Below are positions 15,216-31,743 of a DNA stretch of 64,000 bases, piece after piece. The DNA comes from Oscillospiraceae bacterium (GTDB taxonomy: Bacteria; Bacillota; Clostridia; Oscillospirales; Oscillospiraceae). The position numbers were made by a program, and so were the translations under genes. Positions within the stretch are counted from its first letter, which is position 1. Each line of letters begins with the position of its first letter. A model generated the notes under the pieces. The model did not search any database and was not told the DNA's origin. It was given only the letters and a program-made list of their open reading frames with translations. The stretch spans positions 1-64,000 of the forward strand of contig CADBKO010000007.1 of NCBI GenBank assembly GCA_902795345.1. Direction: 5' to 3'.

Positions 15216-16511
15216 TCAATCCAGGCTTTCCACTATGCCGATGAAGAGAGGGATATTCGTCTCCGTGTCCAGGAGAAGATAGACGAAGGGGCGGTCCAGG
15301 ACGACCCGGGGAGGGGGCTCCCGGAGGGCGCTGGCCGCGTAGATGGTGACGCCCGTGGCGGCCCCGGCGCGGGTGCCCTTCTCGTCCAGCTTCAGGAAGG
15401 TCTTGTGGACCACCTGGCCGATGTATAGGTTATCCCCGTCGTCGCAGAAGCCGAGAGCGGAGAAATCCCCCAGTTCCGCGTCGAAAGCGTCGGTCATCCC
15501 CATCGCCATGAGCGCGTCGTTCAGCTGGACGGAAAACTCCGTCTCAAATTTGGGGGTGACGGTCTCCACCTTGGTTTCCTTCGCCCCCGCCAAAAGGCCC
15601 CGCAGCTTTTCGCCGCTGAGGGAGGCGACGTATTCCTCCAGCGCCATCCCCTCCGCGGGCAGCAGGGCGGCGAAGGCGTAGCGCCCGCCTGAATAGTACT
15701 TCAGGAAGCCGGTGGTGTTTTCATCCTTCAGATACACGTTTTCGCCGCTGTGAAGGAAGGTCGCCTCCTGCTCGCCGCCGTTCTCGGGATGGAAGACGCC
15801 GGGGCGCACCTGATCCTCCCGATAGGGGGTTTCCCAGTCCGCCTCGAAGGCCAGGGCGTTGACCAGCACCATCACCGCCTCCGGGGGCAGCGCGTCCAGG
15901 AGCTTTTCGATCATGCCCTGGGTATTGCGGTTCACGAAGTCGTTGATCCGCTCCACGGCCGCGGCGTCAAAGGGGCACTGCTCCACGGCCACGCCGTAAT
16001 AAGCCCGGTTCCGCTCCAGGAAGTCCTCGGAGATATGCAGGTCCGGCCTGTCCGAGATCCAGATGCCGTCGGCCACCCGGAGGGGGCTTCCCTCCTCCCC
16101 GGCCAGGGCGGACAGCCAGGGGCCGAGGAAGGCGTCCAGCGCTTCGCCGGAGACGCCGAAGGCCGCCTCCATCTGGCTGCGGGTCTCGCCCCCGGCGCCC
16201 TCCAGCACCATGCCCAGGGCACAGAGAACGGAGAGAGGGGAGAGCAGGCGGTTATTTCCCTCGGTCCGGCGCAGGAGCTGGGCGGCGAAGCCCAGGGCCG
16301 CGGCGGAGACTTCCTCCCGGCGGGCCGGGTCCGGCGTGGTGACGACAGAGAGCATTTCCGCCGGCGGCAGAGGCGCGCCCTGGGCCGGTTTCTGCGCCTC
16401 CGTCTGAGATCCGGGCTGCGCCGGGGGAACCTTGCTCTCGCAGCCGCCCAGAGCGGGCAGAGCCGCCAGCATCGCGGCGCAGAGCAATAGGGCTATCAGT
16501 TTCTTTCTCAT
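15216..16511 (-). CDS. Serpin-family protease inhibitor, lipoprotein
   Basis: Serine-protease inhibitor fold, 431 residues, exported and lipid-anchored: a signal peptide with lipobox ALGGC and acyl-Cys24, then a low-complexity linker to about 50. Serpin landmarks include the SPLSVLCALGMVLEGAGGET region, NRNTQGMI (helix F area), LVNALAFEADWETPY and the hinge EKGTRAGAATG before the reactive loop. The C-terminal DRPFVYLLLDTETNIPLFIG is the breach/strand signature. Counting from the hinge puts P1-P1' at Ala-Ser (...TIYA-A/S); counting back from DRPF puts P1 at Arg. Bacterial serpins can inhibit host or self proteases. The small 16574 gene lies 62 nt upstream on the same strand. Confidence 0.92.
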   Translation of the reverse strand: MRKKLIALLLCAAMLAALPALGGCESKVPPAQPGSQTEAQKPAQGAPLPPAEMLSVVTTPDPARREEVSAAALGFAAQLLRRTEGNNRLLSPLSVLCALGMVLEGAGGETRSQMEAAFGVSGEALDAFLGPWLSALAGEEGSPLRVADGIWISDRPDLHISEDFLERNRAYYGVAVEQCPFDAAAVERINDFVNRNTQGMIEKLLDALPPEAVMVLVNALAFEADWETPYREDQVRPGVFHPENGGEQEATFLHSGENVYLKDENTTGFLKYYSGGRYAFAALLPAEGMALEEYVASLSGEKLRGLLAGAKETKVETVTPKFETEFSVQLNDALMAMGMTDAFDAELGDFSALGFCDDGDNLYIGQVVHKTFLKLDEKGTRAGAATGVTIYAASALREPPPRVVLDRPFVYLLLDTETNIPLFIGIVESLD

Positions 16512-16883: not shown

Positions 16884-17140
16884 GAGCCTCGCGGTGTCAT
16901 GTGAAAATCGTCATATCTTTTCGGAAATAAGTAATCAGTTTTTAGAAAAGTATGGCGCAGAAGGGGAAAGTGTGGTATGATGCGAAACACCTTAATATAA
17001 TGCCATTATAGACATTGCATCTGTGGAAGATGTACAGTTTCATCCTTTTCCAGATGTTTCCGGGAACAAAAGCGCCCTGCCCGCGTCCAACTGGTGGGGA
17101 CCGAACAAGGAATAAGAAAAATAAAGATATGGAGGCAACC
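16884..17140 (+). promoter_or_regulatory. Leader region of the solute-binding/HlyD operon
   Basis: AT-rich compared with its flanks. TATAAT at 16996-17001 is the best -10 candidate, but no good -35 lies 16-18 nt upstream, so an activator may be needed. An imperfect palindrome covers the -10 (AATATAATGCCATTATAG). The 5' leader is about 130 nt. GGAGG at 17131-17135 precedes the ATG at 17141. Confidence 0.4.
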
Positions 17141-19684
17141 ATGAAAAATCGGAAGCGCATTTTGACGATCCTCGTGATCGCGGTCCTCTGCCTCGGCCTG
17201 CTTGCCGGATGCGGCGGCAAGAGCGGCGGCGGCAGCGACAAGCCCGGCACCGCTACGGCCAACCCCGGCGGCAGCGGCTCTAATCCCAGCGCCGCGCCTG
17301 CGCAGGATACATATGTTTACACCGCGGAGTATGTGCCCCTGCAGGGGGACGTCGGCTTCCTCAGCTCCCTGACCTATGTTGACGGCCGCCTCCTCGCCAG
17401 CACCTACGGCGTCATCGGGGACAACACTCCCGAGGGCGTGACCCCGGAGTATGAGGGGCAGTATGCGGTCTACGGTAACATCTTCTATTGGATCAACCTG
17501 GACGGCATCACGGAAAAGCTGGACAAATATGAGCCTCTGGATTACGAGACCGACATCGAGAACGCAACGATCACCAGCTTCTCCATGGGCTTCGACGCCG
17601 CTCCCGACGGCACCCTCCGCAACCTGGAGGAGGTCTTCGTCAGCTGGTACGACGGACCCGAAGACGAGGACGTGGAGATGTACTCCGACGAGTGGTACTC
17701 CAAGGGCTACTATGCCTATCAGCACAATGAAGAGCATTTCTTCCTCCGCACCCTGGCCAAGGACGGCTCCGAGATCTCCCGGGTCGATCTGACCGCCCTG
17801 GAGGAGGACAGCGGCGCGGGCGGCGGCATGTTCGGCGGCTTCGGCATGTCCGGCTTCACCACCGACGCGGCGGGCAACATCTATATGAACACCGGTTCCT
17901 CCGTGGTGGTCCTGGACGCCCAGGGCGCCAAGAAGGGGGAAGTGAACCTCAGCGGCGGCGGCTTCGCCTGGATCTCCAACCTGCTGCGCCTGCGGGACGG
18001 CAGGGTCGCCGCGACCTACAACGTGGGCGGCGGCGACCGGCTGACGGTGGTGGACCTGGCCGCCATGGAATTCAGCAAGACCGACAGCTGGCCCGTGGTC
18101 AACGCCACGAATATGACCGTGGGCAGCGCGGAGAGCGAATACGATTTCTATTACACCAACGGCTCCAACTTCATGGGCTATTCCCTGGCCGGCGGCAGCA
18201 GCGAGAAGGTCCTCAACTGGATCAATGCCGACGTGGACCCCAGCAACATCAGCACGGCCCTGCTTCTGCCCGACGGGCGCATCGCCACCGTGGAGACCAC
18301 CTGGGCCAGCGACTTCAGCTCCTCCACCAGCGAGCTGGTGCTCCTGAGCAAGGTGCCCGCCTCCAGCCTGGCCCAGAAGACGGTGCTGACCCTGGCCACC
18401 CAGAGCCTGGACTACAACATCCGCAGCCAGATCGTGAAATTCAACCGCACCAGCCCCGATTTCCGCATCGAGGTGGCGGACTATTCCGAATACAACACGG
18501 AGGACGACGCCTCCGCCGGTCTCACCAAGCTGAACACGGAGATCCTGGCGGGCAACGTGCCGGACATCCTGGATCTGCGCGGCCTCAATGCCGACCAGCT
18601 GGGAGCCCGGGGCCTTCTGGCGGACCTTTATCCCCTGCTGAATGGGGACAGCGAGCTCAGCGGCCATGTGTTCGACAGCGTCCTGAAGGCCCTGGAGAGC
18701 GACGGCAAGCTCTATCGCACCGCCGCCAGCTTCAACCTCTATGCCGTCACCGGCGCGGCCAGCGTGGTGGGGGACACCCCGGGCTGGACGCTCAAGGATT
18801 TCAACGCCGCCCTGCAGAGCATGCCCGAGGGCTGCAAGCCCTTCGCGGACAGCATCACCCGCAGCACGATCCTCAACGCCTGCCTCAACATGGAGATGGG
18901 GAACCTGATCGACTGGAACACCGGCGAGTGCCATTTTGACAGCACCACCTTCACGGACATCCTGGAGTTTGCGGCCATGTTCCCCGCCACCTCGGAGAGC
19001 AGCGGCTTCGGTTTCGGCTTCGGCTTCGGCGGCGACAACGGCCCCACCGAGGAGGAGCGCATCGCCTCCGGCCAGCAGATGCTGGCCCTGAGCTGGCTCA
19101 ACAGCTTCGACAGCTTCCAGACCTACAACAACATGTTCGGCGGGGACGCCACCTATATCGGCTTCCCCACCTCCCAGGGCGTGGGCAACGCCCTCTGGTT
19201 CCAGGACAGCGGCTATGCCATCAGCGCCAAGTGCGCCTACAAGGACGCGGCATGGCAGTTCCTGCGCCTCCTGTTCTCCAAGGATTACCAGAGCGGCGTG
19301 ACCGCCTTCGGCAGCTTCCCCACCAACAAGGACCTCTTCCAGGAGAAGCTCACCCAGGCCATGACGCCCGAGTACATGAAGGACGAAAACGGCAACTACC
19401 TGCTGGACGAGAACGGGGAGCGCATCGAACAGCCCCGCAACAGCGGCTTTGGCTTCGGCTTCGGCTTCGGCGGCGGTGCGGAGATCTATGCGCTGACCCA
19501 GGAGCAGGGGGATGAAGTGATGGCCCTGGTGGAGGGGACGGACCGCATCTGGAATTCCGATTCCGCGATCATGGACACCATCACCGCCGAGGCTGAGGCC
19601 TACTTCGCCGGGCAGAAGACCGCCCAGGAGGTTGCCAAGCTCGTCCAGAGCAAGCTGACGATCTATGTAAACGAACAGAGATAA
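17141..19684 (+). CDS. Lipoprotein with propeller-like N-domain and solute-binding C-domain
   Basis: Secreted lipoprotein of 847 residues. Signal peptide with lipobox LLAGC (Cys24), then a Gly/Ser linker. Residues about 55-420 read as a repeated beta-rich domain (for example SFSMGFDAAPDGTL, GFTTDAAGNIYMNTG, LLRLRDGRVAATY, ALLLPDGRIATVE), consistent with a beta propeller. Residues about 425-847 resemble extracellular sugar-binding proteins (ILAGNVPDILDLRGLNADQLGARGLLADLYP is typical). Family solute-binding proteins are about 400-450 aa, so the N-domain is extra. Two near-identical GFGFGFGFGG tracts sit at about 19004-19033 and 19445-19474. It is followed by two sugar-type permeases. The ligand is unknown. 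Confidence 0.85.
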   Translation: MKNRKRILTILVIAVLCLGLLAGCGGKSGGGSDKPGTATANPGGSGSNPSAAPAQDTYVYTAEYVPLQGDVGFLSSLTYVDGRLLASTYGVIGDNTPEGVTPEYEGQYAVYGNIFYWINLDGITEKLDKYEPLDYETDIENATITSFSMGFDAAPDGTLRNLEEVFVSWYDGPEDEDVEMYSDEWYSKGYYAYQHNEEHFFLRTLAKDGSEISRVDLTALEEDSGAGGGMFGGFGMSGFTTDAAGNIYMNTGSSVVVLDAQGAKKGEVNLSGGGFAWISNLLRLRDGRVAATYNVGGGDRLTVVDLAAMEFSKTDSWPVVNATNMTVGSAESEYDFYYTNGSNFMGYSLAGGSSEKVLNWINADVDPSNISTALLLPDGRIATVETTWASDFSSSTSELVLLSKVPASSLAQKTVLTLATQSLDYNIRSQIVKFNRTSPDFRIEVADYSEYNTEDDASAGLTKLNTEILAGNVPDILDLRGLNADQLGARGLLADLYPLLNGDSELSGHVFDSVLKALESDGKLYRTAASFNLYAVTGAASVVGDTPGWTLKDFNAALQSMPEGCKPFADSITRSTILNACLNMEMGNLIDWNTGECHFDSTTFTDILEFAAMFPATSESSGFGFGFGFGGDNGPTEEERIASGQQMLALSWLNSFDSFQTYNNMFGGDATYIGFPTSQGVGNALWFQDSGYAISAKCAYKDAAWQFLRLLFSKDYQSGVTAFGSFPTNKDLFQEKLTQAMTPEYMKDENGNYLLDENGERIEQPRNSGFGFGFGFGGGAEIYALTQEQGDEVMALVEGTDRIWNSDSAIMDTITAEAEAYFAGQKTAQEVAKLVQSKLTIYVNEQR

Positions 19685-19689
19685 AGGAA

Positions 19690-20667
19690 ATGCGTTCGAG
19701 AACGAAAACAACCGAAAAGCTGAGCCCGGGACCGAAAAGGGAAAAAAGGGCGAAGCGGAAAGCGGGAAAACGGGAACGGTTCAAGTCGGTGACGGGAAGG
19801 CGGGAAAGAACAAAGGATTTCCTGCGGAGCCTGTGCTTCCTCAGCCCCAGCTTCCTGGGGGTCTGCCTGTTCTTCATCGTGCCCTTCGTAGTGGTGGTGA
19901 AGTACGCGGTGACGGATTCCTCCGCAGCCGACGCGGTCTTCGTGGGGATTGACAATTTCAAAAAGCTCATGGCCAACGCGGCCTTCAAGCTGGCGGCGAA
20001 GAATACGCTGACCTTCTCCGCCCTGGCGGTGCCCCTCAGCGTGGTGCTAGCCATCGTGCTGGCCCTGATGCTGGAGAGCCGCATCCCCATGAAAAGCGCC
20101 TTCCGCTCCTTCTTCCTCAGCCCCATGATGGTGCCGGTGGCCTCCATCGTGCTGATCTGGCAGGTGCTGTTCAACTTCAACGGCAGCTTCAACGTGCTGA
20201 TCGAAGCCACGGGGGGCAAGGCCATCGACTGGCTCAATTCGGACTATGCCCAGCTGGTGGTCATCCTGCTCTTCCTCTGGAAGAACCTGGGCTACAATAT
20301 GATCCTCTTCATGTCCGGCCTCCACAACATTCCCAAGGAGCTGCTGGAATACGCGGACGTGGAGGGCGCGTCGGAGTGGTATAAATTCTGGGCCATCAAG
20401 CTGCGGTATCTGAGCCCCACGGTGCTCTTCGTCACCATCCTGAGCCTCATAAACTCCTTCAAGATCTTCCGTGAGGTCTATCTGCTGGCGGGCAACTATC
20501 CTTATCAGGGACTCTATACCCTGCAGCACTTCATGAACAACATGTTCAACTCCCTGGATTATCAGAAGCTCTCCGCCGCAGCCATCATCATGGCCCTCGT
20601 TATGATCGTTCTCATCGCGCTGCTCTTCATCATCGAGAACTGGTTCGGAAAGGACGTGGAGGGATGA
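19690..20667 (+). CDS. Sugar-type ABC transporter permease (MalF/UgpA-like)
   Basis: Integral membrane subunit of a CUT1-type importer, 325 residues with about six membrane segments after a very basic N-terminus (first 40 residues rich in Lys/Arg). The cytoplasmic EAA loop reads EYADVEGASEWYKFWAIKL, the segment that docks on the ATPase. It starts 5 nt after the lipoprotein stop and overlaps the next permease by 4 nt. The substrate is not predictable. No ATPase is encoded in the operon; a shared MsmX-like ATPase encoded elsewhere is the usual solution in Firmicutes. Confidence 0.92.
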   Translation: MRSRTKTTEKLSPGPKREKRAKRKAGKRERFKSVTGRRERTKDFLRSLCFLSPSFLGVCLFFIVPFVVVVKYAVTDSSAADAVFVGIDNFKKLMANAAFKLAAKNTLTFSALAVPLSVVLAIVLALMLESRIPMKSAFRSFFLSPMMVPVASIVLIWQVLFNFNGSFNVLIEATGGKAIDWLNSDYAQLVVILLFLWKNLGYNMILFMSGLHNIPKELLEYADVEGASEWYKFWAIKLRYLSPTVLFVTILSLINSFKIFREVYLLAGNYPYQGLYTLQHFMNNMFNSLDYQKLSAAAIIMALVMIVLIALLFIIENWFGKDVEG

Positions 20668-21557
20668 AGAAAAAGCGCATCAGGAAAAAACAGAAATACT
20701 TCAGCCGCGGGGTCATGTTCCTCATCTGCGCCATTTTCGCGGTCTTGTTCCTGGCCCCCACGGTGCTCACCATCACCAACTCCTTCATGACCGAGTCGGA
20801 GATCAACTCCAACTACGGCATGGTCTTTTCCACCACCACCGGCGGCTACGTCTCCGAGCACGTGAACCTGAAGTTCATCCCCGACAAGGTGACCTTCAGC
20901 CAGTACATCACAGGTCTGGTCCGAAGCCCGGAATACCTGATGAAATTCTGGAACAGCGTGATCCTGACGGTGCCCATCGTCTTTCTCCAGGTGGCGGTGG
21001 CCTCCGTGGCGGCTTACAGCTTCACCCGCTGGCGGGGCAAGATACGCAGCGGCATCTTCTTCTTTTATGTCATCCTGATGCTGATGCCCTACCAGGTCAC
21101 CCTGGTGCCCAACTACCTGGTGGCGGAGCGGCTGGGGATCCTGAACACCCGATGGAGCATCATCCTGCCGGGCATGTTCGCCCCCTTCAGCGTGTTCCTG
21201 CTCACCAAGTATATGCGGCGCATCCCCTATGCCCTCATCGAGGCCGCCAAGATCGACGGCTGCGGCGAGTGGCAGACCTTCACGAAAATCTGCCTCCCCC
21301 AGTGCAGGGCCGCCCTGTGCAGCATCGCCATCCTGGTGTTCATCGACTACTGGAATATGGTCGAGCAGCCCCTGGTGCTGCTGAACGACGCGGAGATGCA
21401 GCCCTTGAGCGTTTATCTCAGCACCATCAATTCCGGCGAGATCGGTCTCGCCTTCGCCATGGCCACGGTCTATATGTTCCCGTCCCTCCTGATCTTCCTG
21501 GCCGGAGAGAACTATCTTATGGAGGGCATCACACATTCCGGCAGCATTAAGGGGTAA
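20664..21557 (+). CDS. Sugar-type ABC transporter permease (MalG/UgpE-like)
   Basis: Second permease subunit, 297 residues, six predicted membrane helices, basic N-terminus (KKKRIRKKQKYFSRG). The EAA loop reads EAAKIDGCGEWQTFTKICLP. A long extracytoplasmic segment between helices 1 and 2 (about 35-90) is normal for this family. It overlaps the first permease by 4 nt (ATGA) and is followed after 6 nt by the HlyD-like gene, so import and adaptor functions are translated from one message. Confidence 0.92.
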   Translation: MKKKRIRKKQKYFSRGVMFLICAIFAVLFLAPTVLTITNSFMTESEINSNYGMVFSTTTGGYVSEHVNLKFIPDKVTFSQYITGLVRSPEYLMKFWNSVILTVPIVFLQVAVASVAAYSFTRWRGKIRSGIFFFYVILMLMPYQVTLVPNYLVAERLGILNTRWSIILPGMFAPFSVFLLTKYMRRIPYALIEAAKIDGCGEWQTFTKICLPQCRAALCSIAILVFIDYWNMVEQPLVLLNDAEMQPLSVYLSTINSGEIGLAFAMATVYMFPSLLIFLAGENYLMEGITHSGSIKG

Positions 21558-21563
21558 CGAATC

Positions 21564-24008
21564 ATGGAAGAAGAAAAAAAGAAAAAAAGAGGTTGGGTCA
21601 AGGACGCCGCCATCATTTTCCTGGCGGTTCTGCTGGTGCTGACCTTTTTCTCCAATACCATCCTCAACCGCTCCCTTCCCGAGGTGGCCACGGTCTACGT
21701 CCAGGAGGGCACCATCACCAACAAGGTCCGGGGCACCGGCACCGTGACGGCCCGTGAGAACTACGACGTGACCATCGACCAGACCCGCAAGGTCCAGAGC
21801 GTCCTTGTGCGGGTGGGGGACGAGGTCAGCGTGGGCGACGTGCTCTTCACCCTCCAGCCCGGGGACTCTGACGAGCTGGAGAATGCGGAAAAGCAGCTCA
21901 AGACCCTGGAGGAGAACTATCAGCTCTGGCTGCTGGACCTGACCACCGCGGACTATTTCGACCTGGACCGGAGCATCTCCGACGCCAGGGAAGACCTGGT
22001 GGAGGCACGGGAGGACCGGGACAAGGCGGAGATCACCGCCGACGACCTCCGGGAATATGAGGAGAAGCTGGCGGAGCTGGAAGCGAAGCAGGCAGAGCTG
22101 GAAGCCGCCATCGAATCTCAGCAGGCCGTCGTGGACGCCGGCAGCGAGAGCGTGGACGAGCTGGGCGACCGCTCCGGCACCCTTCGGGAGCTGGAGCTGC
22201 AGATGCGCGAGCTGGAAGAACTGCTCCAGGAAAAGAAGGTGCTGGTCCGTGAACTCGGCGAGAAAGTCGATGCTGCCAAGGCGAGAGTGGACGCCGGCGT
22301 GCCGGATAAGCAGGAAGATGTAGACAAGGCTACGGAAGAATACAATACCGCCAAGGAAGAACTGAGCAAGGCGTCCAAGGGAGACGCCGATTACGAGCGG
22401 GACGTCCGCCCGAAGGAGGAAGCCTATGAGGCCGCCCAGGAGGAGACAGCCAAGGCGGAAAAGGAATTGCAGGTAGCCGAGGTTGTCTATAAGGACGACT
22501 ATGACGAACTGGTCCGGGAAGCCACCTTCATGGAGTTCGATTACAAGGTATATGCCATCCTGGATGATACGGAGGTCAAATACCGTGCGGACAATAAGAT
22601 CCCCAGGAATGACGAACTGACGCCGGAGCAGAAGGAGGAAGTCCAGAAGCTGGCCCAGCCGGAGATCGACAAGCTGGGAAGCCGCAACTCTTATGAACCC
22701 AAGCGGCTGAACGTCTATCTGCCCGCGGCGGCGGAAAAATTCGCCGGTACTCCCATGGCTGCAGCCTATCAGCATATCAAAGCGGCCAGGGATAACGTAG
22801 AGACCAGGTATGAGATCGAGAGCGATGCTTACAGTGCCTACGAAGAGGCCTATAAGGATTACCGGGAAAAGAGAAGCGAAGACGACGAATACAATACCCT
22901 GAACAAAAGGCTGGAACGAGCCGAAGCCGCGCTGAAACGGGCGGAGTCTGCGCTTGAAAAAGCGATGGAGCCGCTGAACGACGCCTTGGAGAAAGCCCAA
23001 AGCGAACTCAGCAAGGCAAATACCGAGCAGAAGGACGTGGAGGACTCCATCAGCGATCTGAATTTCCGGATGAACCAGATCAGGAACGGCGAGCTGGACG
23101 ACCGCAACAAGGATCTCAGCGAGGCTGACCAGAAGCTGAAGGATCTGCAGGCCGACCTGGACAAGGCCAAGGCGGATCATGACAAACTGGAAGCCGACAT
23201 GGAAGCCCGGGAGAACGAATTTAAGCAGGCCAAGGAAAAGGTAAAGACCGCGGAGCGCAATCTGGAGGACCGGCTGCGGGACCTGGAAAAGCAGAAGCAG
23301 AACGACGGGAAGCAGCAGGTCCGGGACAATATCGCCCAACGGGACAAGCTGGAGGAGATCGAGGAGCAGCGGGCCCTGGTGGAGGAGCTGAGCGGCGCCG
23401 ACAACAGCACCGAGGTCCGGGCCAATGTCGCCGGCAAGATCCAGAGCCTCAGCGTCAGCGCAGGGCACAAGGCGGAGGCCGGCAACGTCCTGGCCACCAT
23501 CGAGGTCCCCGACCTGGGCTACGGCATGAGCTTCACCGTCACCACCGAGCAGGCCCGGCGGCTGAAGGTGGGGGACAGCGCCACCGTATCCAACTTCTAC
23601 TGGGGCAGCCAGATCGTGGCCACCCTGGCCTCCATCCAGACCGACCCCCAGAATCCCCAGGGCAGCCGCATCCTGAACTTTGACGTCACCGGCGACGTGA
23701 CCGCAGGCAACAGCCTCACCATCTCCGTGGGCGAAAAGAACGCCAACTACGACATGGTGGTGCCCAACAGCGCCGTCCGCAGCGATACCAACGGCTCCTT
23801 CGTGCTGATGGTCACCGCCAAGAACAGCCCCCTGGGCAACCGCTACTTTGCCAGCCGCGTCAACGTGGAAGTGGTGGCCTCCGACGACCAGTACAGCGCC
23901 ATTTCCGGCGCCATCGAGGCCTATGACAGCGTGATCACCACCGCCAGCCGCAACGCGCCCATCTCCTCCGGGGATCAGGTGCGCCTGGCCGACAGCAATA
24001 ACGGATGA
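21564..24008 (+). CDS. HlyD/RND-type membrane-fusion adaptor with giant coiled coil
   Basis: 814 residues, about twice a normal adaptor. One N-terminal membrane helix (about 13-33), a first lipoyl-like half (about 55-100, TVTARENYDVTIDQTRKVQ), then a long helical hairpin: arm 1 about 105-310, a non-helical tip about 310-420 (Pro/Tyr-containing), arm 2 about 420-610. The second lipoyl half (about 615-660, VRANVAGKIQSLSVSAGHKAEAG) and beta-barrel/membrane-proximal domains follow (about 660-814). Such adaptors link inner-membrane exporters to outer parts of the envelope. It overlaps the next gene by 4 nt. The coiled-coil part (about 22250-23060) has visibly lower GC and more A/T-ending codons than its flanks. 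Confidence 0.88.
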   Translation: MEEEKKKKRGWVKDAAIIFLAVLLVLTFFSNTILNRSLPEVATVYVQEGTITNKVRGTGTVTARENYDVTIDQTRKVQSVLVRVGDEVSVGDVLFTLQPGDSDELENAEKQLKTLEENYQLWLLDLTTADYFDLDRSISDAREDLVEAREDRDKAEITADDLREYEEKLAELEAKQAELEAAIESQQAVVDAGSESVDELGDRSGTLRELELQMRELEELLQEKKVLVRELGEKVDAAKARVDAGVPDKQEDVDKATEEYNTAKEELSKASKGDADYERDVRPKEEAYEAAQEETAKAEKELQVAEVVYKDDYDELVREATFMEFDYKVYAILDDTEVKYRADNKIPRNDELTPEQKEEVQKLAQPEIDKLGSRNSYEPKRLNVYLPAAAEKFAGTPMAAAYQHIKAARDNVETRYEIESDAYSAYEEAYKDYREKRSEDDEYNTLNKRLERAEAALKRAESALEKAMEPLNDALEKAQSELSKANTEQKDVEDSISDLNFRMNQIRNGELDDRNKDLSEADQKLKDLQADLDKAKADHDKLEADMEARENEFKQAKEKVKTAERNLEDRLRDLEKQKQNDGKQQVRDNIAQRDKLEEIEEQRALVEELSGADNSTEVRANVAGKIQSLSVSAGHKAEAGNVLATIEVPDLGYGMSFTVTTEQARRLKVGDSATVSNFYWGSQIVATLASIQTDPQNPQGSRILNFDVTGDVTAGNSLTISVGEKNANYDMVVPNSAVRSDTNGSFVLMVTAKNSPLGNRYFASRVNVEVVASDDQYSAISGAIEAYDSVITTASRNAPISSGDQVRLADSNNG

Positions 24009-25066
24009 AAAAGCGCAAACTCATCGTCGTCTCGCTCATCTGCTGCGGCGTATTGCTGATCCTGGCCGCCGCCTGCCTGATCGCCAGGGGGACGCTGGCC
24101 AAAACGCAGCAGAGTCAGATGCAGGCGGAGCGCTGGGCCGGGGAGAGCGGGCAGAGATTCATGCAGTTCACCTGCTTCTTCACCCAGGACCAGCTGAAGG
24201 ACCTGGAGAGCGTCTATGCCCTCCGGCAGAAATACAGCGACAAGTTCGCGGAAGCGGACCTGGAGCCCCACCCCGGCGGCAGCCTCTACTGCGACGCCTG
24301 GAGCACCACCGGCTCCGTGAAGATCGCTTCCGAGCATGGCAGCGCCACCACCTCCGTGGTGGCCGTGGGGGGCAGCTTCTTCGACTTCCATCCCCTGACC
24401 CTGCGCAGCGGCGGCTATCTCCGGCAGAACGACCTGATGAAGGACCGGGTGGTGCTGGACGAGGTGCTGGCCTGGATGCTCTTCGGCAGCCCCTATGTGG
24501 CGGGCATGCAGGTGGACATCGGGGGCAAGCCCTATATCGTCGCCGGTGTGGTGCAGCGGGAATCCGACAAAGCCACGATGCAGTTCGCGGAAGACGGGCC
24601 CATGCTCTACATCCCCTTTGAGAGCTGGCTCACCATCAATTCCAAGGCGGGCATCGACTGCTACGAGGTGGTGCTCCCCGAGCCGGTGGACGGTTTCACC
24701 CAGACCGTTCTGGAGGGGAACTTCTCCGTGGGGGACGGTATCCTGCAGCAGAACACGGACCGCTTCACCCTGGGGGCCTCCATCCGGCAGATGAAGAAAT
24801 TCGGCACCCGGGGCACCCGCACCAGCGCCGCCATCCTGCCCTATTGGGAGCATGCGGCCCGCTATGTGGAGGACTGGTGCACGCTCCTGGCGTTCCTGGC
24901 CCTGCTGCTGCTCATCTTCCCGGCCATCTGCGCCCTGGTGGGCTTCGTGTGGGGCTGGATCCTGCTGCGGAAGCTGCTGAAAAACCGCCTTCCCGGCTGG
25001 ATCGGCAAAGCCGGAGACATGCTCTACGCCTTCTCCGGAAAGTTCTACAAGGGCAAGCGGGAATAA
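24005..25066 (+). CDS. MacB-like periplasmic-core membrane protein without FtsX domain
   Basis: 353 residues: an N-terminal membrane helix (about 6-28), an extracytoplasmic domain (about 30-280) resembling the MacB periplasmic core (VVAVGGSFFDFHPLTLRSGGYL, then VVLDEVLAWMLFGS and a VAGVV strand) and a C-terminal hydrophobic stretch (about 287-320) ending in a basic tail. Complete MacB/FtsX permeases have three further helices after the core; they are missing here. It overlaps the HlyD-like gene by 4 nt. In MacA-MacB systems the core contacts the adaptor, so I infer that this protein docks the HlyD-like adaptor. It cannot be a transporter alone. Confidence 0.75.
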   Translation: MKKRKLIVVSLICCGVLLILAAACLIARGTLAKTQQSQMQAERWAGESGQRFMQFTCFFTQDQLKDLESVYALRQKYSDKFAEADLEPHPGGSLYCDAWSTTGSVKIASEHGSATTSVVAVGGSFFDFHPLTLRSGGYLRQNDLMKDRVVLDEVLAWMLFGSPYVAGMQVDIGGKPYIVAGVVQRESDKATMQFAEDGPMLYIPFESWLTINSKAGIDCYEVVLPEPVDGFTQTVLEGNFSVGDGILQQNTDRFTLGASIRQMKKFGTRGTRTSAAILPYWEHAARYVEDWCTLLAFLALLLLIFPAICALVGFVWGWILLRKLLKNRLPGWIGKAGDMLYAFSGKFYKGKRE

Positions 25067-25080
25067 GGAAAGGCAAAATG

Positions 25081-25120
25081 ACCGGCAAGGGACGCTTCAA
25101 AACGATCCCTTGCCGGTTTT
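25081..25120 (+). terminator. Terminator of the solute-binding/HlyD operon
   Basis: A 12-bp perfect stem (ACCGGCAAGGGA and complement) with a 13-nt loop, extended on both sides by GGCAAAA/TTTTGCC and followed by TTTT. It starts 14 nt after the last stop and marks the operon end. Confidence 0.85.
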
Positions 25121-25206
25121 GCCGTAAAGAACAGGCGTTGTCTCCAACAGCCGCAGGGCCGAAGAGACGACGCCTGTCCCGATTCACGATGCTATGCGCT
25201 CTTTCG

Positions 25207-26838
25207 TCAGGAGGTGATAAGTACGGTGCTGGTGGAGCCGTCCCAGCCCACGTCGCAGCCCAGAGCGTTGGCCAGGGCCCGCACGGGGAGGTAGGTGGTC
25301 CCGTTGAGAATGAACGCATCCAGCACGGTGCCGTTGGCGTCCTTGGGGATGATGAGCCTGCCGTCCAGAACGATGCGGATGCCCCGGAAGGTCAGGGTAG
25401 CCGTCTCCGTCCCGGTCTTTCCGGCCTTGGTGCGGGGTGTGGACTGCCGGGGGTAACCGGATTTCAGGGTGATGGTTCCCGTCGCGCCGTCCCAAGCCAC
25501 GTCGCAGCCCAAAGCGCCCGCCACAGCCCGGAGGGGCAGGTAAGTGGTGCCGTCGATGATGAAGGGATCGACTGCGTTGCCCTGGGCGTCCGTGGGCTGG
25601 ATTAGCTCCCCGTCGATGCTGATCTTGATGTCCTTATAAGTTAGAGTCGCCGTCTCGGTGTAGCTCTCCACAGCGCGGGTGTGCAGGCCGCAGACGGCGT
25701 CGATGTCCGCGCCGGGCCAGCTTCCGTTGTAGTCATTGTTGCCCGTGTCCGTCAGGCGGACGTAGCGGAAGTCGCTGCCCGCAGGGACCTTGCCCGCGAA
25801 ATCCAGGCCCGCCGTGCGGCCCTCGGCAACGCCGATCTCATACCAGGTCATGAGATCGTCGCTGACCTCCACCTTGGTTTCCTCCACATTGCCGCCGACC
25901 TCGAAGATATAGATGTCCTTGCCCTCCCCGTCGTAGATGCGCGCGTCAAGCATCACGGTGAGGACGCCTTTGAACCCCAGGCAGAGGTCTCCCGTGCTGT
26001 AGTCAGAGTCGTCCGCGTCGGGGACGCCCAGGGAAATCAGCGGGTCCTTGTTCGCTCCGACGCTGGTCCAGGGGTCGCCGGCCTGGAAGTCGATCACCCG
26101 GTAGGCAAAGGCGGTGAGGGGCACCGTGACCGTGTATCCGTCCCGATCCCGGAAGGTGTAATAGCCGCCGTCGATGTCGCCGAGCTCTTCACCGCCGCCG
26201 GGCGCAGGCGAGGGCGCAGGCGAAGGCGAAGGTTCGGGCTCGTCGGGGAGGGGGCGGGTGTTCAGGCCGCAGACCGTGTCGATGTCCGCGCCGGGCCAGC
26301 CCCCGCTGGGGTTTGCGCCGGTGTCCGTCAGGCGGACATAGCGGAAGCCGCTGCCCGCCGGGACCTTGCCGGAAATGTCCAGCCCCGCGGTACGGCCTTC
26401 GGCGATACCGATCTCATACCAGGCGCTCAGGTCGTCGCTGATCTCTACTTTGGTTTCCTCCACATTGCCGCCGACCTCAAAGACGTAGATGTCGTCTCCC
26501 GGCCCGTCATAGATGGAAGAGGAGAAGCCCAGCACCAGAACGCCGTTGACGCCCAGGCAGAGGTCGCCGGTGCTGCTGTTAGAGTCACTGGCGTCAGGAA
26601 GACCGATGGCGATCTGCGGGTCGGTGTTGGTTTCTCCTTCGCTGCGCCAGGGGTCGCCGTGGGTGAATTCCACCACGTAGGACGCGAAGGCGCTCACCGG
26701 CACCGTGACCGTGTTGCCCTCCCGGTCGGTGAAGGTGTAGTTGTCGCCGTCCAGATAGCCCTCCTCGGCAAAAGCCGCCGGGGCGGCCAGCAACAGGAGC
26801 GCCAGGATCAGCGCTAGGGATATAAGCCTTTTCTTCAT
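25207..26838 (-). CDS. Secreted protein with two repeat domains and two stalk domains
   Basis: 543 residues with a cleavable signal peptide (about 1-23, ...APAAFA). Two homologous ~150-residue domains (about 25-170 and 200-345) share GDPW, STGDLCLG, EVGGNVEETKVE, EGRTAGLD and RYVRLTDTG stretches; they look like a discoidin-like or cell-surface recognition fold. A Pro/Ser/Ala linker separates them. The C-terminus has two copper-amine-oxidase-N-like stalk domains (about 375-450 and 468-543; DGTTYLPLRAVAGALGCDV and its NGTTYLPVRALANALGCDV partner). No catalytic motif is seen. ATG at 26838 follows AGGAGG; the upstream extension lies in another gene. Confidence 0.85.
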   Translation of the reverse strand: MKKRLISLALILALLLLAAPAAFAEEGYLDGDNYTFTDREGNTVTVPVSAFASYVVEFTHGDPWRSEGETNTDPQIAIGLPDASDSNSSTGDLCLGVNGVLVLGFSSSIYDGPGDDIYVFEVGGNVEETKVEISDDLSAWYEIGIAEGRTAGLDISGKVPAGSGFRYVRLTDTGANPSGGWPGADIDTVCGLNTRPLPDEPEPSPSPAPSPAPGGGEELGDIDGGYYTFRDRDGYTVTVPLTAFAYRVIDFQAGDPWTSVGANKDPLISLGVPDADDSDYSTGDLCLGFKGVLTVMLDARIYDGEGKDIYIFEVGGNVEETKVEVSDDLMTWYEIGVAEGRTAGLDFAGKVPAGSDFRYVRLTDTGNNDYNGSWPGADIDAVCGLHTRAVESYTETATLTYKDIKISIDGELIQPTDAQGNAVDPFIIDGTTYLPLRAVAGALGCDVAWDGATGTITLKSGYPRQSTPRTKAGKTGTETATLTFRGIRIVLDGRLIIPKDANGTVLDAFILNGTTYLPVRALANALGCDVGWDGSTSTVLITS

Positions 26839-26881
26839 GGGATACCCTCCTTTGTTGTGATTTTGGATCGTTCTTGCTGAG

Positions 26882-26910
26882 ACTATAACATATGGAGCAT
26901 TCCCGGTCAA
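26882..26910 (-). promoter_or_regulatory. Promoter of the stalk-domain gene
   Basis: Minus-strand TTGACC and TATAGT with a 17-nt spacer, 44 nt before the start. It overlaps the stop codon of the upstream hydrolase-fold gene, so the gene can be expressed on its own. Confidence 0.7.
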
Positions 26911-27917
26911 TCCCCGCGCTGGGGAAGGAACGCTTCCGCGGCATCCCGGTATTCCTCCGAGAGCCAGAGGGCCCGGTAGGAGGCGCCGGGGACGACGACC
27001 AGCTCCTTTTTTGCAGCGCAGGCGTCGTAGACTGCCCGGCTCTGTGCCTCTCCCGGCAGGATCTCCTGGCTGCCGCAGACGAAAAGGACGGGGCAAGAGA
27101 GGTTGGCGGCGGCGGCCCGGATGTCCACGCTGTCCGGCTCAAAGCCCAGGGAAGAACGGATGCGGCTGCGGAGGAAGCGGCCCACGAACCAGTCCCCCAG
27201 GCGGTAGAGCTTTTTCAGCAGGCCCCGCTGCATCTGACCCATCTGGTCGTAGACGCTCTCCGCCACGATCCCGTCCAGACCCGCCCCGGCCAGGCTCTCA
27301 TTGGAGGCCAGGAGGATGGCGGCGGCGGCGCCGGCGCCCTTAGCGTGGATCAGCACCGTTTCCTCCGCAAGCCCGGCGGCCCGGATCAGGTCATACAGGT
27401 CAAATTCCTCATAGACCCCGTAGGTGGTGGCGATGTGGTTGGTATCCCCCGGCTCCTGATAGCCCCGCTGCTGAGGGATCAGGACTCCATAGCCCTGCTC
27501 CCACCACCAGGGCGCGGCGGTCAGGTCCGGCTCCTCCGTGCCCTGAAAGCCGTGGAGGAGGATCACCGTTTTCCCGGTGCCCCGGTCATAATAGCGGTAG
27601 TTCAGGGTGAGCTTCGCGCCTTCCCCGAACCAGCCTGCGGCGGACTCGGTGACGAAGGAACCCTCCGTCGGCGTATGGGCTTCTTCCCAGGCTTCCGCAG
27701 CTTCCCCGGCGGCGTCCAGAGCGGCCTGCTCCTCCGCCGTAACGCTCCATTCCGCCATGGTGTCCAGCTGCGCCTGGGCCCGGTAGCGGAGGAAGGCCAG
27801 CTCATAGACGGTGGCGGCGGAATTGCTCTGCCCCCAGAGAAGGAAAAAGACGCCGATCAGGATGGCCATGGCCACAAAGACGGGGAAGGGGAAGCCGTCC
27901 GAATTTTTCTTCTTCAT
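26907..27917 (-). CDS. Membrane-anchored alpha/beta-hydrolase fold protein lacking the nucleophile
   Basis: 336 residues: an N-terminal membrane helix (about 10-28), a helical stretch, then an alpha/beta-hydrolase core (VILLHGFQGTEE at about 119-130, VLIPQQRGYQEPG). The nucleophile elbow of active relatives, G-x-S-x-G, reads AKGAG here (about 189-193), so glycine replaces serine. The usual acid-loop region reads VCGSQEILPG and the His loop reads PGASYRALW, with no histidine. The fold looks intact but all three catalytic positions seem lost. RBS GGAGG lies upstream of the ATG. It may bind rather than hydrolyse a ligand; this is inference. Confidence 0.8.
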   Translation of the reverse strand: MKKKNSDGFPFPVFVAMAILIGVFFLLWGQSNSAATVYELAFLRYRAQAQLDTMAEWSVTAEEQAALDAAGEAAEAWEEAHTPTEGSFVTESAAGWFGEGAKLTLNYRYYDRGTGKTVILLHGFQGTEEPDLTAAPWWWEQGYGVLIPQQRGYQEPGDTNHIATTYGVYEEFDLYDLIRAAGLAEETVLIHAKGAGAAAAILLASNESLAGAGLDGIVAESVYDQMGQMQRGLLKKLYRLGDWFVGRFLRSRIRSSLGFEPDSVDIRAAAANLSCPVLFVCGSQEILPGEAQSRAVYDACAAKKELVVVPGASYRALWLSEEYRDAAEAFLPQRGD

Positions 27918-28084: not shown

Positions 28085-28915
28085 TCAGCCGATCTTTTCC
28101 TCTTTGTTTTCGATATGGGCGGGGCTGCCGGGGAAGAAGATGAGCTTCCGGGGGCACTTCTCCGCGCAGATGCCGCAGTTCTGGCACTTGGAGAAATCCT
28201 TGACGGAGAGGTTGTCCACGATATGCACCGCATTGTGAGGGCAGTTCTTCTCGCAGAGATGGCAGCCCAGGCAGCCGCTCTCGCAGACCTTCCGGGTGAT
28301 GCCGCCCTTGTCGGTGTTGTTGCAGGCGATGGTGCCCACCGCGTCGTAGGGCAGAGCCACGATGAGCTTCTTGGGGCAGGCGGAGACGCAGGCCAGGCAG
28401 CCCCGGCATTTTTCGTGGTCCACCTTCGCCACGCCGTCCACGATATGGATGGCGTCGAACTTGCAGACCGAGACGCAGTTGCCGTAGCCCAGGCAGCCGT
28501 AGGCGCAGCTGAGGGGGCCGCCGCCGGTGGAGGCGGAGGCCAGGGCGCAGTCCTTCACCCCGTCGTAGTTGTATTTGTTATGGGCTTTGTCGCCGCCGGA
28601 GCAGCGCACAAAGGCCACCTGCCGCACAAATTCCGGCGTTGCCTCCCCCAGAATGGCGGCGATGCCGTCCACGGCGGCGGCCCCGCCGGGGGCGCAGAGA
28701 TTCCTCGGCGCATCCTCCTTGACGATGGCCTGGGCATAGGCGGCGCAGCCGGTATAGCCGCAGGCGCCGCAGTTGGCCCCGTTGAGGCAGCTCTGGATCT
28801 TGGCGATCCGGGGGTCCTCCTCCACGTGGAAGACCTGGGAGGCGACGGCCAGCACCAGGCCGAACACGACGCCCAGCCCGCCCAGCACGCAGAAGGCAAA
28901 CAGTACGTTATTCAT
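28085..28915 (-). CDS. rnfB: Rnf complex subunit B (ferredoxin-type)
   Basis: Peripheral, multi-cluster subunit of the Rnf ferredoxin:NAD+ oxidoreductase; it receives electrons from reduced ferredoxin. 276 residues: N-terminal membrane anchor (about 5-26), the CxxxxxCxxCxxxxC cluster motif CLNGANCGACGYTGC (about 43-57) and, after residue 140, four further CxxCxxCxxxC-type 4Fe-4S motifs (CLGYGNCVSVC, CRGCLACVSAC, CLGCHLCEKNC, CQNCGICAEKC). It is the last gene of the rnfCDGEAB operon, 12 nt after rnfA. Confidence 0.96.
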   Translation of the reverse strand: MNNVLFAFCVLGGLGVVFGLVLAVASQVFHVEEDPRIAKIQSCLNGANCGACGYTGCAAYAQAIVKEDAPRNLCAPGGAAAVDGIAAILGEATPEFVRQVAFVRCSGGDKAHNKYNYDGVKDCALASASTGGGPLSCAYGCLGYGNCVSVCKFDAIHIVDGVAKVDHEKCRGCLACVSACPKKLIVALPYDAVGTIACNNTDKGGITRKVCESGCLGCHLCEKNCPHNAVHIVDNLSVKDFSKCQNCGICAEKCPRKLIFFPGSPAHIENKEEKIG

Positions 28916-28927
28916 CCTTCATCCTCC

Positions 28928-29518
28928 TCAAAAGACCTTCAGGCCGGAGAAGCCCATGAACGCCAGGGCCAGGAGCCCGGCGGAAATGAGGGCGATGGGG
29001 AAGCCCTCAAAGCTCTTGGGGGAATCTCCCGTCAGGTCCAGCCGCTCCCGCACGGAGGCAAAGAGCACGATGGCAACCAGGAAGCCCAGGCCGCCGGTGA
29101 TGCCGTAGACCACGCTTTCCAGGAAATTGTAATTGTTCTGGGTATTCAGCAGCACCACGCCCAGCACGGCGCAGTTGGTGGTGATGAGGGGCAGATAGAT
29201 GCCCAGGGCCTGATACAGAGAGGGGATGCTCTTTTTCAGGAACATCTCCACGAACTGCACCAAAGAGGCGATCACCAGGATATAGGCCACGGTCTGCATG
29301 TAGCCCAGGCCCAGGGGCACCAGGAGATAGGTGTTCACCAGCCAGCAGAAGACGCTGGCGATGCCCATGACGAAGGTGACGGCGATACCCATGCCCAGGG
29401 CGGTGTCCATTTTCTTGGAGACGCCCATGAAGGGACAGATGCCCAGGAACTGGGAGAAAATGAAGTTCTGGATCAGGATCGCCCCCAGGGCGATGGAGAC
29501 AAGGCCCGTAAAGCTCAT
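28928..29518 (-). CDS. rnfA: Rnf complex subunit A
   Basis: Integral membrane subunit, 196 residues with six hydrophobic helices. RnfA and RnfE are related, inverted-topology subunits that build the membrane core and bind a shared 2Fe-2S cluster. The QNFIFSQFLGICPFMGVSKK stretch near residues 20-40, with its cysteine, is the conserved cluster region. It overlaps rnfE by 4 nt. Confidence 0.95.
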   Translation of the reverse strand: MSFTGLVSIALGAILIQNFIFSQFLGICPFMGVSKKMDTALGMGIAVTFVMGIASVFCWLVNTYLLVPLGLGYMQTVAYILVIASLVQFVEMFLKKSIPSLYQALGIYLPLITTNCAVLGVVLLNTQNNYNFLESVVYGITGGLGFLVAIVLFASVRERLDLTGDSPKSFEGFPIALISAGLLALAFMGFSGLKVF

Positions 29519-30156
29519 TTCTTCTCCGCCTCCTTCTTCTCAGAATGGCGGCGCAGGAGATACTGCATCAGGGCGATGAGGCAGCCCAGGGTCAGGAAGC
29601 CGCCCACCGGCAGGATCATCATCAGGGCCCCGCTGCCCTCGGGCAGGATGCGGATGCCCGCTCCGTCGGGCCCCAGGAGGCCGCCGCCGAAGGTGCCGTT
29701 GCCCAGCAGCTCCCGGATGATGCACATGACGATCAGCACCAGGGTATAGCCCAGGCCCTGGAAGATGCCGTCCAGGGCGCTGGCCGCCACGCTGTTCTTG
29801 GAGGCGAAGGCCTCCGCCCGGGCCAGGATGATGCAGTTGACCACGATCAGGGGGATGAACACCCCCAGAGATTCACTGAGGCTGGGAAGATAGGCCTGCA
29901 TCAGCAGGTCCACGATGGTGACGAAGCCCGCCACAATCACGATATAGCAGGCGATGCGGATCTGGTCGGGGATCAGCTTCCGCACCAGGGAGATCACGAT
30001 GTTCGAGCAGGTGAGGATGATGATGACGCTGATGCCCATGCCGATGCCGTTGAAAAGGGTGGTGGTGATGGCCATGGTGGAGCACATGCCCAGCAGCTGC
30101 ACCAGCACCGGATTGTTGGTGATGAGCCCTTCCTTGAATTGCTTTTTCACGTTCAT
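29515..30156 (-). CDS. rnfE: Rnf complex subunit E
   Basis: Integral membrane subunit, 213 residues, six helices; partner of RnfA. The N-terminal half has NPVLVQLLGMCSTMA with the conserved cysteine, matching the RnfA cluster region. The charged C-terminal tail (RHSEKKEAEKK) is cytoplasmic. It overlaps rnfG by 4 nt upstream and rnfA by 4 nt downstream. Confidence 0.95.
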   Translation of the reverse strand: MNVKKQFKEGLITNNPVLVQLLGMCSTMAITTTLFNGIGMGISVIIILTCSNIVISLVRKLIPDQIRIACYIVIVAGFVTIVDLLMQAYLPSLSESLGVFIPLIVVNCIILARAEAFASKNSVAASALDGIFQGLGYTLVLIVMCIIRELLGNGTFGGGLLGPDGAGIRILPEGSGALMMILPVGGFLTLGCLIALMQYLLRRHSEKKEAEKK

Positions 30157-30725
30157 GCGCCTGCCCCCCTTATCAGCTCGTTTGCCGCGGCCAGGGCCGC
30201 GTTGACGCCCTTCGTCACGGCGGTGGAGGTGACGGTGGCCCCGGTGAGGGCGTCGATCTCGCCGCCCTGCTTGCGCAGCGCCACGCTGCCGCCCTTGCCG
30301 GTGTACTGGCTGCGGAAGCTCTCCCGCTTGGCGTTGGCCCCCAGGCCGGAGGTCTCGCTCATGGACACGATGCTGACCCCCGTGACGGCGCCGCTCTTAT
30401 CCACGCCCACGGCCATTTCGATCTCACCGCCGAAGCCGGAGGGCGTCACCATGATGACCCAGCCGCTGCCGCCGGCGTCGTAGATCTCCTTCACAAGCTC
30501 AACTTTGCTCGCGGCGGAGCCCTCCACGGGGGTGTAGCTCTCCGCAGGAAGCACCTCCCGCATGGCCGCGGCGGTCTTTTCCGCTTCGAAGGCGGCGATG
30601 CGCTCGCTGGTGATCTTGTTCACCAGACCCAGGGCGACGGCCACCACGGCGGCGAAGGCGAAGAGGATCACCGCCAGCTTCAGGGTGGCCCAGTTCAGCC
30701 GGAAGTCCTTCTTTTCTTCCGTCAT
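30153..30725 (-). CDS. rnfG: Rnf complex subunit G (covalent FMN)
   Basis: 190 residues: one N-terminal membrane helix (about 12-35) and an extracytoplasmic FMN-binding domain. The flavinylation motif S/T-G-A-T-x-T/S is TGATVTS (about 163-169); the second threonine should carry FMN through a phosphoester bond. An ApbE-type flavin transferase is required but is not in this window. Overlaps rnfD by 4 nt and rnfE by 4 nt. Confidence 0.95.
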   Translation of the reverse strand: MTEEKKDFRLNWATLKLAVILFAFAAVVAVALGLVNKITSERIAAFEAEKTAAAMREVLPAESYTPVEGSAASKVELVKEIYDAGGSGWVIMVTPSGFGGEIEMAVGVDKSGAVTGVSIVSMSETSGLGANAKRESFRSQYTGKGGSVALRKQGGEIDALTGATVTSTAVTKGVNAALAAANELIRGAGA

Positions 30726-31729
30726 GCTTTCCCCGCCTCCTTTTTCTCTTTCACGGTGCCGAAGCGCTTGTTGGGGAGGGCCTTATCCAGCAGCCACACC
30801 GCAGCGTTCATGATCAGGATGGCGTAGCTGACGCCCTCCGCATAGGAGCCGAAGTAGCGGATGAACACCGTCAGCGCCCCGCAGCCCACGCCGAAGACGA
30901 TCTGGGCCCTGGGGTTTACGGGGCTGGTGGTGTAGTCCGTGGCCATGAAGATGGCGCCCAGCATGACGCCGCCGGAGCAAAGCTGCCAGAGCATCCAGCT
31001 CAGGCGGGGGTTCCCCTTGGGGAAGAGGAAGGTCAGCACCGCGACGGTGAGCAGGAAGGCCAGGGGGATGCGGGGGCTGATGACTTTCCTGACCAGCAGA
31101 TAGCAGCCGCCCAGCAGCAGGGCAAAGGCGCTCACCTCGCCCATGGAGCCGCCCACCTGGCCCAGGAAATCCTGGAGCAGGGTGAGGCCCTGGGGCAGCG
31201 CGCCGCCCTTGAGGGCAGCCAAAGGCGTGGCGGAAGTGACCGCGTCCGCCAGATTGGGGTTGAAGAAACTGCGGTAGCTCAGCGGCGCGACCCAGCGGGT
31301 CATGGCCACGGGCCAGCTGAAGAGGAAGGCCCGGGCCGCCAGAGCGGGATTCATGAAGTTCTTGCCGATGCCGCCGAAGAGCTGCTTCACCAGGATGATG
31401 GCGAAGGCGTCGCCGATCAGCAGGATCCACCAGGGGATGGACACCGGCAGGGTATAGGCCAGGAGCACGCCGGTGACGGCGGCGCTGAGGTCGCCGGTGG
31501 AATCCGGCTTTTTCAGCAGCTTCCGGTAGCCCCATTCGAAGAAGAGGCAGCCCAGGACGCTGAGGACCGTGTTGAGGATGGCCCGCAGGCCGAACATCCA
31601 GGCCGCCACCACGAGGGCGGGGATCAGGGCGATCAGCACGTCCAGCATGATGCTCCGGGTGTCCTCCCCGGTGCGGATATGGGGCGAGGCGGAGATGGAG
31701 AGCAGGTTTTCTTTCTTTTCCGTATCCAA
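30722..31729 (-). CDS. rnfD: Rnf complex subunit D (covalent FMN)
   Basis: Membrane subunit, 335 residues, about nine or ten helices; carries a covalent FMN. The SATPLAALK motif (about residue 155-165) is the expected flavin-attachment site. The N-terminus LSISASPHIRTGEDT is the family hallmark. I start at TTG 31729 (GGGAGG site 6-7 nt upstream), because the track's longer frame enters rnfC and shows repeat-like sequence. The gap to rnfC is 14 nt. Confidence 0.94.
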   Translation of the reverse strand: MDTEKKENLLSISASPHIRTGEDTRSIMLDVLIALIPALVVAAWMFGLRAILNTVLSVLGCLFFEWGYRKLLKKPDSTGDLSAAVTGVLLAYTLPVSIPWWILLIGDAFAIILVKQLFGGIGKNFMNPALAARAFLFSWPVAMTRWVAPLSYRSFFNPNLADAVTSATPLAALKGGALPQGLTLLQDFLGQVGGSMGEVSAFALLLGGCYLLVRKVISPRIPLAFLLTVAVLTFLFPKGNPRLSWMLWQLCSGGVMLGAIFMATDYTTSPVNPRAQIVFGVGCGALTVFIRYFGSYAEGVSYAILIMNAAVWLLDKALPNKRFGTVKEKKEAGKA

Positions 31730-31743
31730 TGTTCTCCCTCCCG

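Follow-up and report, generated by a model that had tools for sequence, protein, structure and literature searches.

What is encoded by an operon that joins the genes of a sugar importer to those of an exporter-type adaptor and a MacB-like core protein, with no gene for an ATPase? The question is raised by a locus in the draft genome (2.75 Mb, 66 contigs) of an Oscillospiraceae bacterium, assembly GCA_902795345.1. The stretch analysed, called the window, comprises positions 1–64,000 of contig CADBKO010000007.1, and five plus-strand open reading frames (ORFs) at 17141–25066, confirmed from the window letters, lie in it in the order S-A-B-H-M. We read them as one conserved module, with a probability of roughly 0.6, in which a CUT1-type sugar importer, a MacA-like adaptor and a MacB-core protein would form one envelope complex and work with an MsmX/MalK-type ATPase predicted to be encoded elsewhere in the genome. 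The features are the following (aa, amino acids; TM, transmembrane).

17141..19684, plus strand: S, a lipoprotein of 847 aa with lipobox ...LLAGC, predicted to have an N-terminal beta-propeller and a C-terminal CUT1-type oligosaccharide-binding domain.
19690..20667, plus strand: A, a CUT1-type permease (BPD_transp_1, 9.6e-19) with an EAA-like loop, EYADVEG..., identified by eye.
20664..21557, plus strand: B, a CUT1-type permease (BPD_transp_1, 3.7e-13) with an EAA-like loop, EAAKIDG..., identified by eye.
21564..24008, plus strand: H, a MacA/HlyD-type adaptor of 814 aa (Pfam HlyD_3 and Biotin_lipoyl_2, AlphaFold2 (AF2) model, Foldseek, profile).
24005..25066, plus strand: M, a MacB-core protein of 353 aa arranged as TM1, extracytoplasmic MacB_PCD (9e-10) and TM2.
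25072..25123, plus strand: a terminator-like hairpin closing the operon (RNA fold −33.3 kcal/mol, z −6.9).

The genes are spaced by 5 nucleotides (nt) at S/A and 6 nt at B/H, and overlap by 4 nt at A/B and H/M. The tight five-gene operon described in the initial annotation is thus confirmed by its ORFs, spacings and Pfam domains, and the terminator claimed there corresponds to the hairpin. The hairpin is strong, with none of 200 shuffles equally stable; its T run is short, and a consensus terminator scan of the window did not list it. Upstream of S, a promoter-like match at 17009–17038 is at chance level (2 found in the scanned stretch, 2.1 expected), and no promoter was identified. The genome holding the window has a single match to M.

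The gene set is conserved beyond the window. Named genomes scanned with a pattern yielded 357 loci that encode an M relative, and the best 80 (L089–L168) were mapped with labels for six gene families only, namely S, A, B, H, M and a MalK-type ATPase, K. The three closest of these loci belong to metagenome-assembled genomes of Oscillospiraceae; sheep rumen stands in the titles of two. All 80 named loci have H within 600 nt of M. Where the contig is long enough to tell, B is next to H in 71 of 71 loci (9 are cut by a contig end), A is present in 66 of 66 (14 cut), and S adjoins the core in 50 of 63 (17 cut). The script accounts for 68, 64 and 49 of these cases, respectively. The rest were read by hand: B from the locus listing in L098, L101 and L141, which have split or over-long H frames and in which the script had scored B absent; A in L101 and L141; and S in L141. 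The neighbour search suggested earlier for a conserved gene set therefore came out positive, A-B-H-M being kept in the best 80 named loci wherever the contig suffices.

Co-occurrence across genomes gives the same picture. At E 1e-5, 30 of 99 genomes, counting the window's own, have a match to M; five of these matches are weak (25–32 bits) and map as MacAB-like loci (L056–L060). Among the 98 related genomes, 23 have orthologues of both M and B, 1 has M without B, none has B without M, and 74 have neither; the cut-offs were placed after the score gaps were visible (51.7 versus 32.2 bits for M, 352 versus 202 for B). Fisher's test gives p 1.6e-21 when the genomes are treated as independent, although they are not.

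Within the class, 61 of 391 genomes match M at 1e-10; 22 matches outside the window genome exceed 100 bits, and the flanks of 20 were mapped. A-B-H stands upstream of M in 19 of these 20 loci, and the remaining contig starts within H; in L232, M was hidden by the overlap filter and was placed by the class genome search. S is labelled in 14 of the 20. In the phylum, where 38 of 398 genomes match M, two strong matches were found besides the own genome and G124, and both are arranged as S-A-B-H-M-K (L247, L248).

A second, short branch is represented by 12 loci (L251, L253, L254 and L284–L292). Its H measures 388–433 aa where complete and its M 448–481 aa, with more than two hydrophobic segments in the three M proteins checked (L251, L253, L254). 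The core is complete in 10 of the 12 loci, the other two being cut by contig starts; a MalK-type K is present in 10, and in 9 S has 459–498 aa without a recognised propeller. The distribution is patchy: searches for this branch found it in 4 of 10 genomes from one family, in 4 of 82 from one sample of a class and in 3 of 398 from the phylum sample. In a tree of A and B with 51 rows, 10 of them from the short branch, the two branches separate at 100/100. Taken together, the mapped loci of both branches show that A-B-H-M is the steady core, around which S and K are mobile. In one genome, G867 (L258–L260), short-branch M matches lie in three pieces, one with an internal stop, and may be decayed.

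The lack of an ATPase was central to the initial annotation. It is true of the window operon, since Pfam finds no ABC ATPase domain in S, A, B, H or M, and untrue of the family: K adjoins the core in 21 of 73 testable named loci, with 7 more cut by contig ends. K of L254 carries ABC_tran, OB_MalK and TOBE_2 domains by Pfam. To catch such MalK-type ATPases, a search pattern must admit proline in the P-loop. An unlinked MsmX-like gene of 377 aa is present in the window genome on a different contig (C20); over 252 residues its product shares 64% identity with the linked K of L046. By our reading, the genes around it include a CdaR/PucR-like regulator and a pseudouridine synthase, and no transporter. 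MsmX-like genes were found in 11 of 11 relative genomes tested, three of them with a linked K. In an ATPase tree of 39 rows, in which K of L253 and L254 is not included, the MsmX-like gene of the window genome groups with the linked K of L045, L046, L124, L158/L247 and L248, apart from the larger linked-K group. One ATPase is known to be common to several CUT1 systems (PMC8579813, PMC11466899; here, as for all papers cited, excerpts are the source). Linked K in relatives, the unlinked MsmX-like gene and the known sharing of ATPases make it most likely that the ATPase missing from the operon acts in trans. The idea of an ATPase-free machine is thus contradicted, with many homologous clusters bearing a MalK-type ATPase beside M or A; homologous clusters do carry their own ATPase, and the gene set is nevertheless conserved. 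Separately, an ABC ATPase gene not labelled MalK by profile (L051:8132-8836; ABC_tran 5e-21) lies upstream of the core of a stalk-less variant, and upstream of A in L120 and L136 there are non-MalK ABC ATPase genes, read from their sequence starts.

What, then, might the exporter-like parts do? H has one N-terminal TM helix (residues 11–33) and lipoyl, barrel and membrane-proximal parts. Two helical arms are predicted at 104–343 and 397–608, about 210–240 residues each. The AF2 model (pLDDT, the predicted local distance difference test, 83.8; pTM, the predicted template modelling score, 0.43) matches AcrA, BesA and MacA by Foldseek, and the best profile match in the PDB is MacA 4dk0 (3e-10). 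The stalk insert is 518 aa in the window, compared with 92–138 aa in the short branch. As measured by the mean top-residue fraction, the TM helix is the most conserved part (0.88), followed by the folded domains (0.54–0.76), and the arms are lowest (0.23–0.24), partly from length differences. The conservation of the TM helix fits what would be expected of an intramembrane contact. M matches MacB 3ftj (8e-10) and YknZ 5f9q (4e-6) by profile. In the window it has two hydrophobic segments (1–34 and 286–322), whereas the same script finds four in a MacB-type control (L057); M thus differs from the four-TM permeases of the MacB/FtsX type, and it has no ATPase domain.

S consists of a predicted propeller (residues about 55–410) and an oligosaccharide-binding part (about 413–847). 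SBP_bac_1 is matched at 5e-8 by Pfam, and oligosaccharide-binding proteins are the best PDB fold matches. The N-domain fold is assigned from the model, profile matches and Pfam members, structural searches of S being dominated by the sugar-binding domain. The propeller matches Pfam Reg_prop, a family named for two-component regulators. Two minor observations concern S. GFGFGFGFGG-type repeats occur twice (residues 622–631 and 769–779), within or next to loops of the sugar-binding domain that are modelled with low confidence; of 46 aligned S proteins 4 have such repeats, that of the window and those of the three named loci nearest to it. In L229, L235 and L238 there are 2–3 S paralogues for one A-B-H-M core, an arrangement that would suit a single transporter served by several binding proteins.

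The stalk of H and the propeller of S tend to be present or absent together. When loci with identical H C-termini are merged, the propeller profile matches S in none of 11 loci with an H insert of 138 aa or less and in 67 of 71 with a longer insert; the four exceptions are L147 (S of 462 aa, on a short contig) and three loci of genus g147. Two of the 11 short-insert loci (L251, L291) have an S of 703–730 aa with an N-part of unknown fold. L051, from the window's own genus, has the order S-H-M-A-B, an H of at most 251 aa without a readable lipoyl or hairpin part, and an S of 478 aa without a propeller. In the tree of A and B, its permeases nest within the long-stalk branch, next to those of L231 (95/95), a locus with both stalk and propeller. 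The joint absence in L051 argues that propeller and stalk may work together. The earlier proposal that the adaptor holds the binding lipoprotein gains indirect support from this joint presence and absence.

A mechanism can be proposed on these grounds. A and B would form the import channel, with a shared MalK-type ATPase docking on their EAA loops. The lack of an ATPase and the presence of only two TM helices in the window's M suggest a passive docking platform for H, on which an H ring would sit as MacA does on MacB. The very long hairpin of H would project into the peptidoglycan, where it may dock or space the propeller-carrying S; sugars caught in the wall by S would then be passed to A and B. 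A related adaptor, YknX, is reported to bind peptidoglycan (PMC5985334). Of this account, the gene set, its linkage, the folds assigned by profile or model and the co-variation of stalk and propeller are observed; the complex, its ring, its extension into the wall, the class of substrate, the direction of transport and the identity of the ATPase are inferred. In its fullest form the proposal is an ABC importer that spans the wall. An adaptor ring derived from an exporter would sit on the ATPase-less MacB core and bind the permeases, and its stalk, about 30 nm long or longer, would cross the Gram-positive peptidoglycan and carry or feed the binding protein with its propeller. Large glycans would then be caught within the wall or outside it and guided down to the membrane. 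This fuller form is tentative, and we consider it possible but on the whole rather doubtful.

Several observations weigh against the single module or its mechanism. In 13 of the 63 named loci where it could be judged, S does not adjoin the core; nor does it in six loci of g147, which are all those without S among the mapped class loci. One of the 24 M-bearing genomes, G009, has M at a contig end without a B orthologue, and co-occurrence and operon linkage are no proof of contact. The link of stalk and propeller is mostly one deep split, and the one joint absence that is derived, L051, comes from a genome whose completeness is rated at 72%; moreover, the g147 loci L242, L244 and L250 have an S of 706–842 aa whose N-part is unseen by the propeller profile. 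With a pTM of 0.43, the H model does not establish that the stalk is straight. Finally, there are distant H-M pairs in other families of the phylum (L298, L299, L300) in which H is beside M and no labelled importer gene lies within 5–8 kb upstream of H. Their importer-free M proteins score 44–58 bits, not clearly apart from short-branch L204 and L205 (59–65 bits).

These pairs emerged among weak M matches. The weak matches (L026–L030, L055–L060 and most of L195–L228) are for the most part ordinary MacAB-like loci, in which M has a short ATPase gene next to it, and none was taken as a member. Five without a short ATPase in the first-mapped stretch were mapped further (L297–L301); L297 is cut upstream, and in L301 the order is M-H, followed by an ABC ATPase gene. 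The H scores separate the groups, at 24–75 bits for importer-free pairs versus 174–265 bits for complete short-branch proteins, with short-branch H not in the training set of the profile. Since importer-free H scores below all short-branch H, the single-system claim is limited to this H subfamily; the pairs fall outside it and do not lower the odds given above. Within the window's H subfamily the claim is upheld by permeases in all testable named loci and by near-perfect co-occurrence, and it does not extend to every pair of HlyD-like and MacB-core proteins. An adaptor and MacB-like gene free of importer genes, which the initial annotation regarded as telling against one system, occur in distant relatives only. 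It is possible that H and M were taken over from an ancestor that had no importer genes.

Alternatively, H and M could act as a sensor or force transducer that reports the state of the wall, or bound polymer, to the pair of A/B and ATPase. Type VII ABC proteins such as FtsEX and Bce are mechanotransducers. Excerpts of two papers describe MacB-type proteins in these terms (PMC5985334, PMC11466899), no MacB-type ATPase lies between the adjoining H and M in any of the 80 named loci, and the Reg_prop match of the propeller would suit such a role. Nevertheless, A, B and S retain importer features, and we regard a sensor as unlikely. An exporter, in which the CUT1-like pair and MalK push glycan outward through an H tube, is improbable: the resemblance of H and M to an exporter family is opposed by S, which belongs to the CUT1 type of binding protein known to act in import, and by A and B, which match importer permease families. 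That the operon merely houses two independent systems, an ordinary sugar importer alongside a MacAB-like pair that has decayed or lacks its ATPase, is likewise improbable, for although ordinary MacAB loci (H, short ATPase and four-TM M) exist in related genomes (L056–L058) and the importer-free pairs occur in other families, A-B-H-M is kept through moves of S and K, across families and branches, M is almost always accompanied by B, and the highly conserved TM helix of H is not decaying.

The single importer module that we prefer resembles known systems in part. Like the CUT1 importers that share MsmX or MsmK in B. subtilis and C. bescii, it has a binding lipoprotein, two BPD_transp_1 permeases and, going by the linked K of relatives, a candidate MalK-type OB/TOBE ATPase that may be encoded apart. 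MsmX systems are tabulated as a binding protein, two permeases and an ATPase (PMC11466899); here, in contrast, the adaptor and MacB core are constant partners and S bears a propeller. The adaptor fold of H and the MacB core of M are shared with the MacAB, YknXYZ and Spr0693-0695 pumps, of which Spr0693 is described as a hexameric tube docking onto its transporter (PMC5768738). Unlike in MacAB and YknXYZ, M of the window has no ATPase and two predicted TM helices, the partner is an importer, and the stalk of H carries the 518-aa insert; no MacB-type ATPase is fused or adjoining, and the linked ATPase examined in a relative (L254) is MalK-type. AztD-AztC zinc import also pairs a beta-propeller protein with an ABC binding protein (PMC6689063), yet AztD is a separate zinc-binding protein, whereas the propeller of S is fused to a sugar-type binding domain. 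Papers on C. bescii and B. longum came up in the text search and, judging from excerpts, are unrelated to the gene set. Among the papers listed by full-text search of open PMC papers, with subscription papers and preprints outside its scope, none was recognised as describing S-A-B-H-M; the initial annotation, too, remarks that no named system is known to have these genes.

To our knowledge, the passage of large glycans through the thick Gram-positive wall to membrane importers is poorly understood. The module is widespread in Clostridia, with many cases from rumen or gut samples, and offers a testable candidate for such passage. It also suggests that adaptors and MacB cores are used outside efflux, and some HlyD/MacB genes may thus be misread as drug pumps. 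If true, a trans-wall importer would be a Gram-positive counterpart of a trans-envelope uptake machine, with the efflux scaffold turned round.

Neighbouring genes were considered as a clue to the substrate and set aside, as no steady pattern appears across loci. In L240 and L245 the core has GH9-CBM3 cellulases nearby; a pyruvate kinase (L240), a transglutaminase-like protein (L241), a glutamate synthase (L249) and GDPD (L250) are also found. In the window, the operon is adjoined by a minus-strand gene for a serpin with a lipoprotein-like signal (15216–16511; PF00079, 5e-77). On its other side, also on the minus strand, are a protein with two PF07833 (copper amine oxidase N-terminal domain) stretches and weak F5/8-type C similarity (25207–27096) and an Rnf electron-transport operon (28085–33075; RnfB, A, E, G, D and C by NCBIfam).

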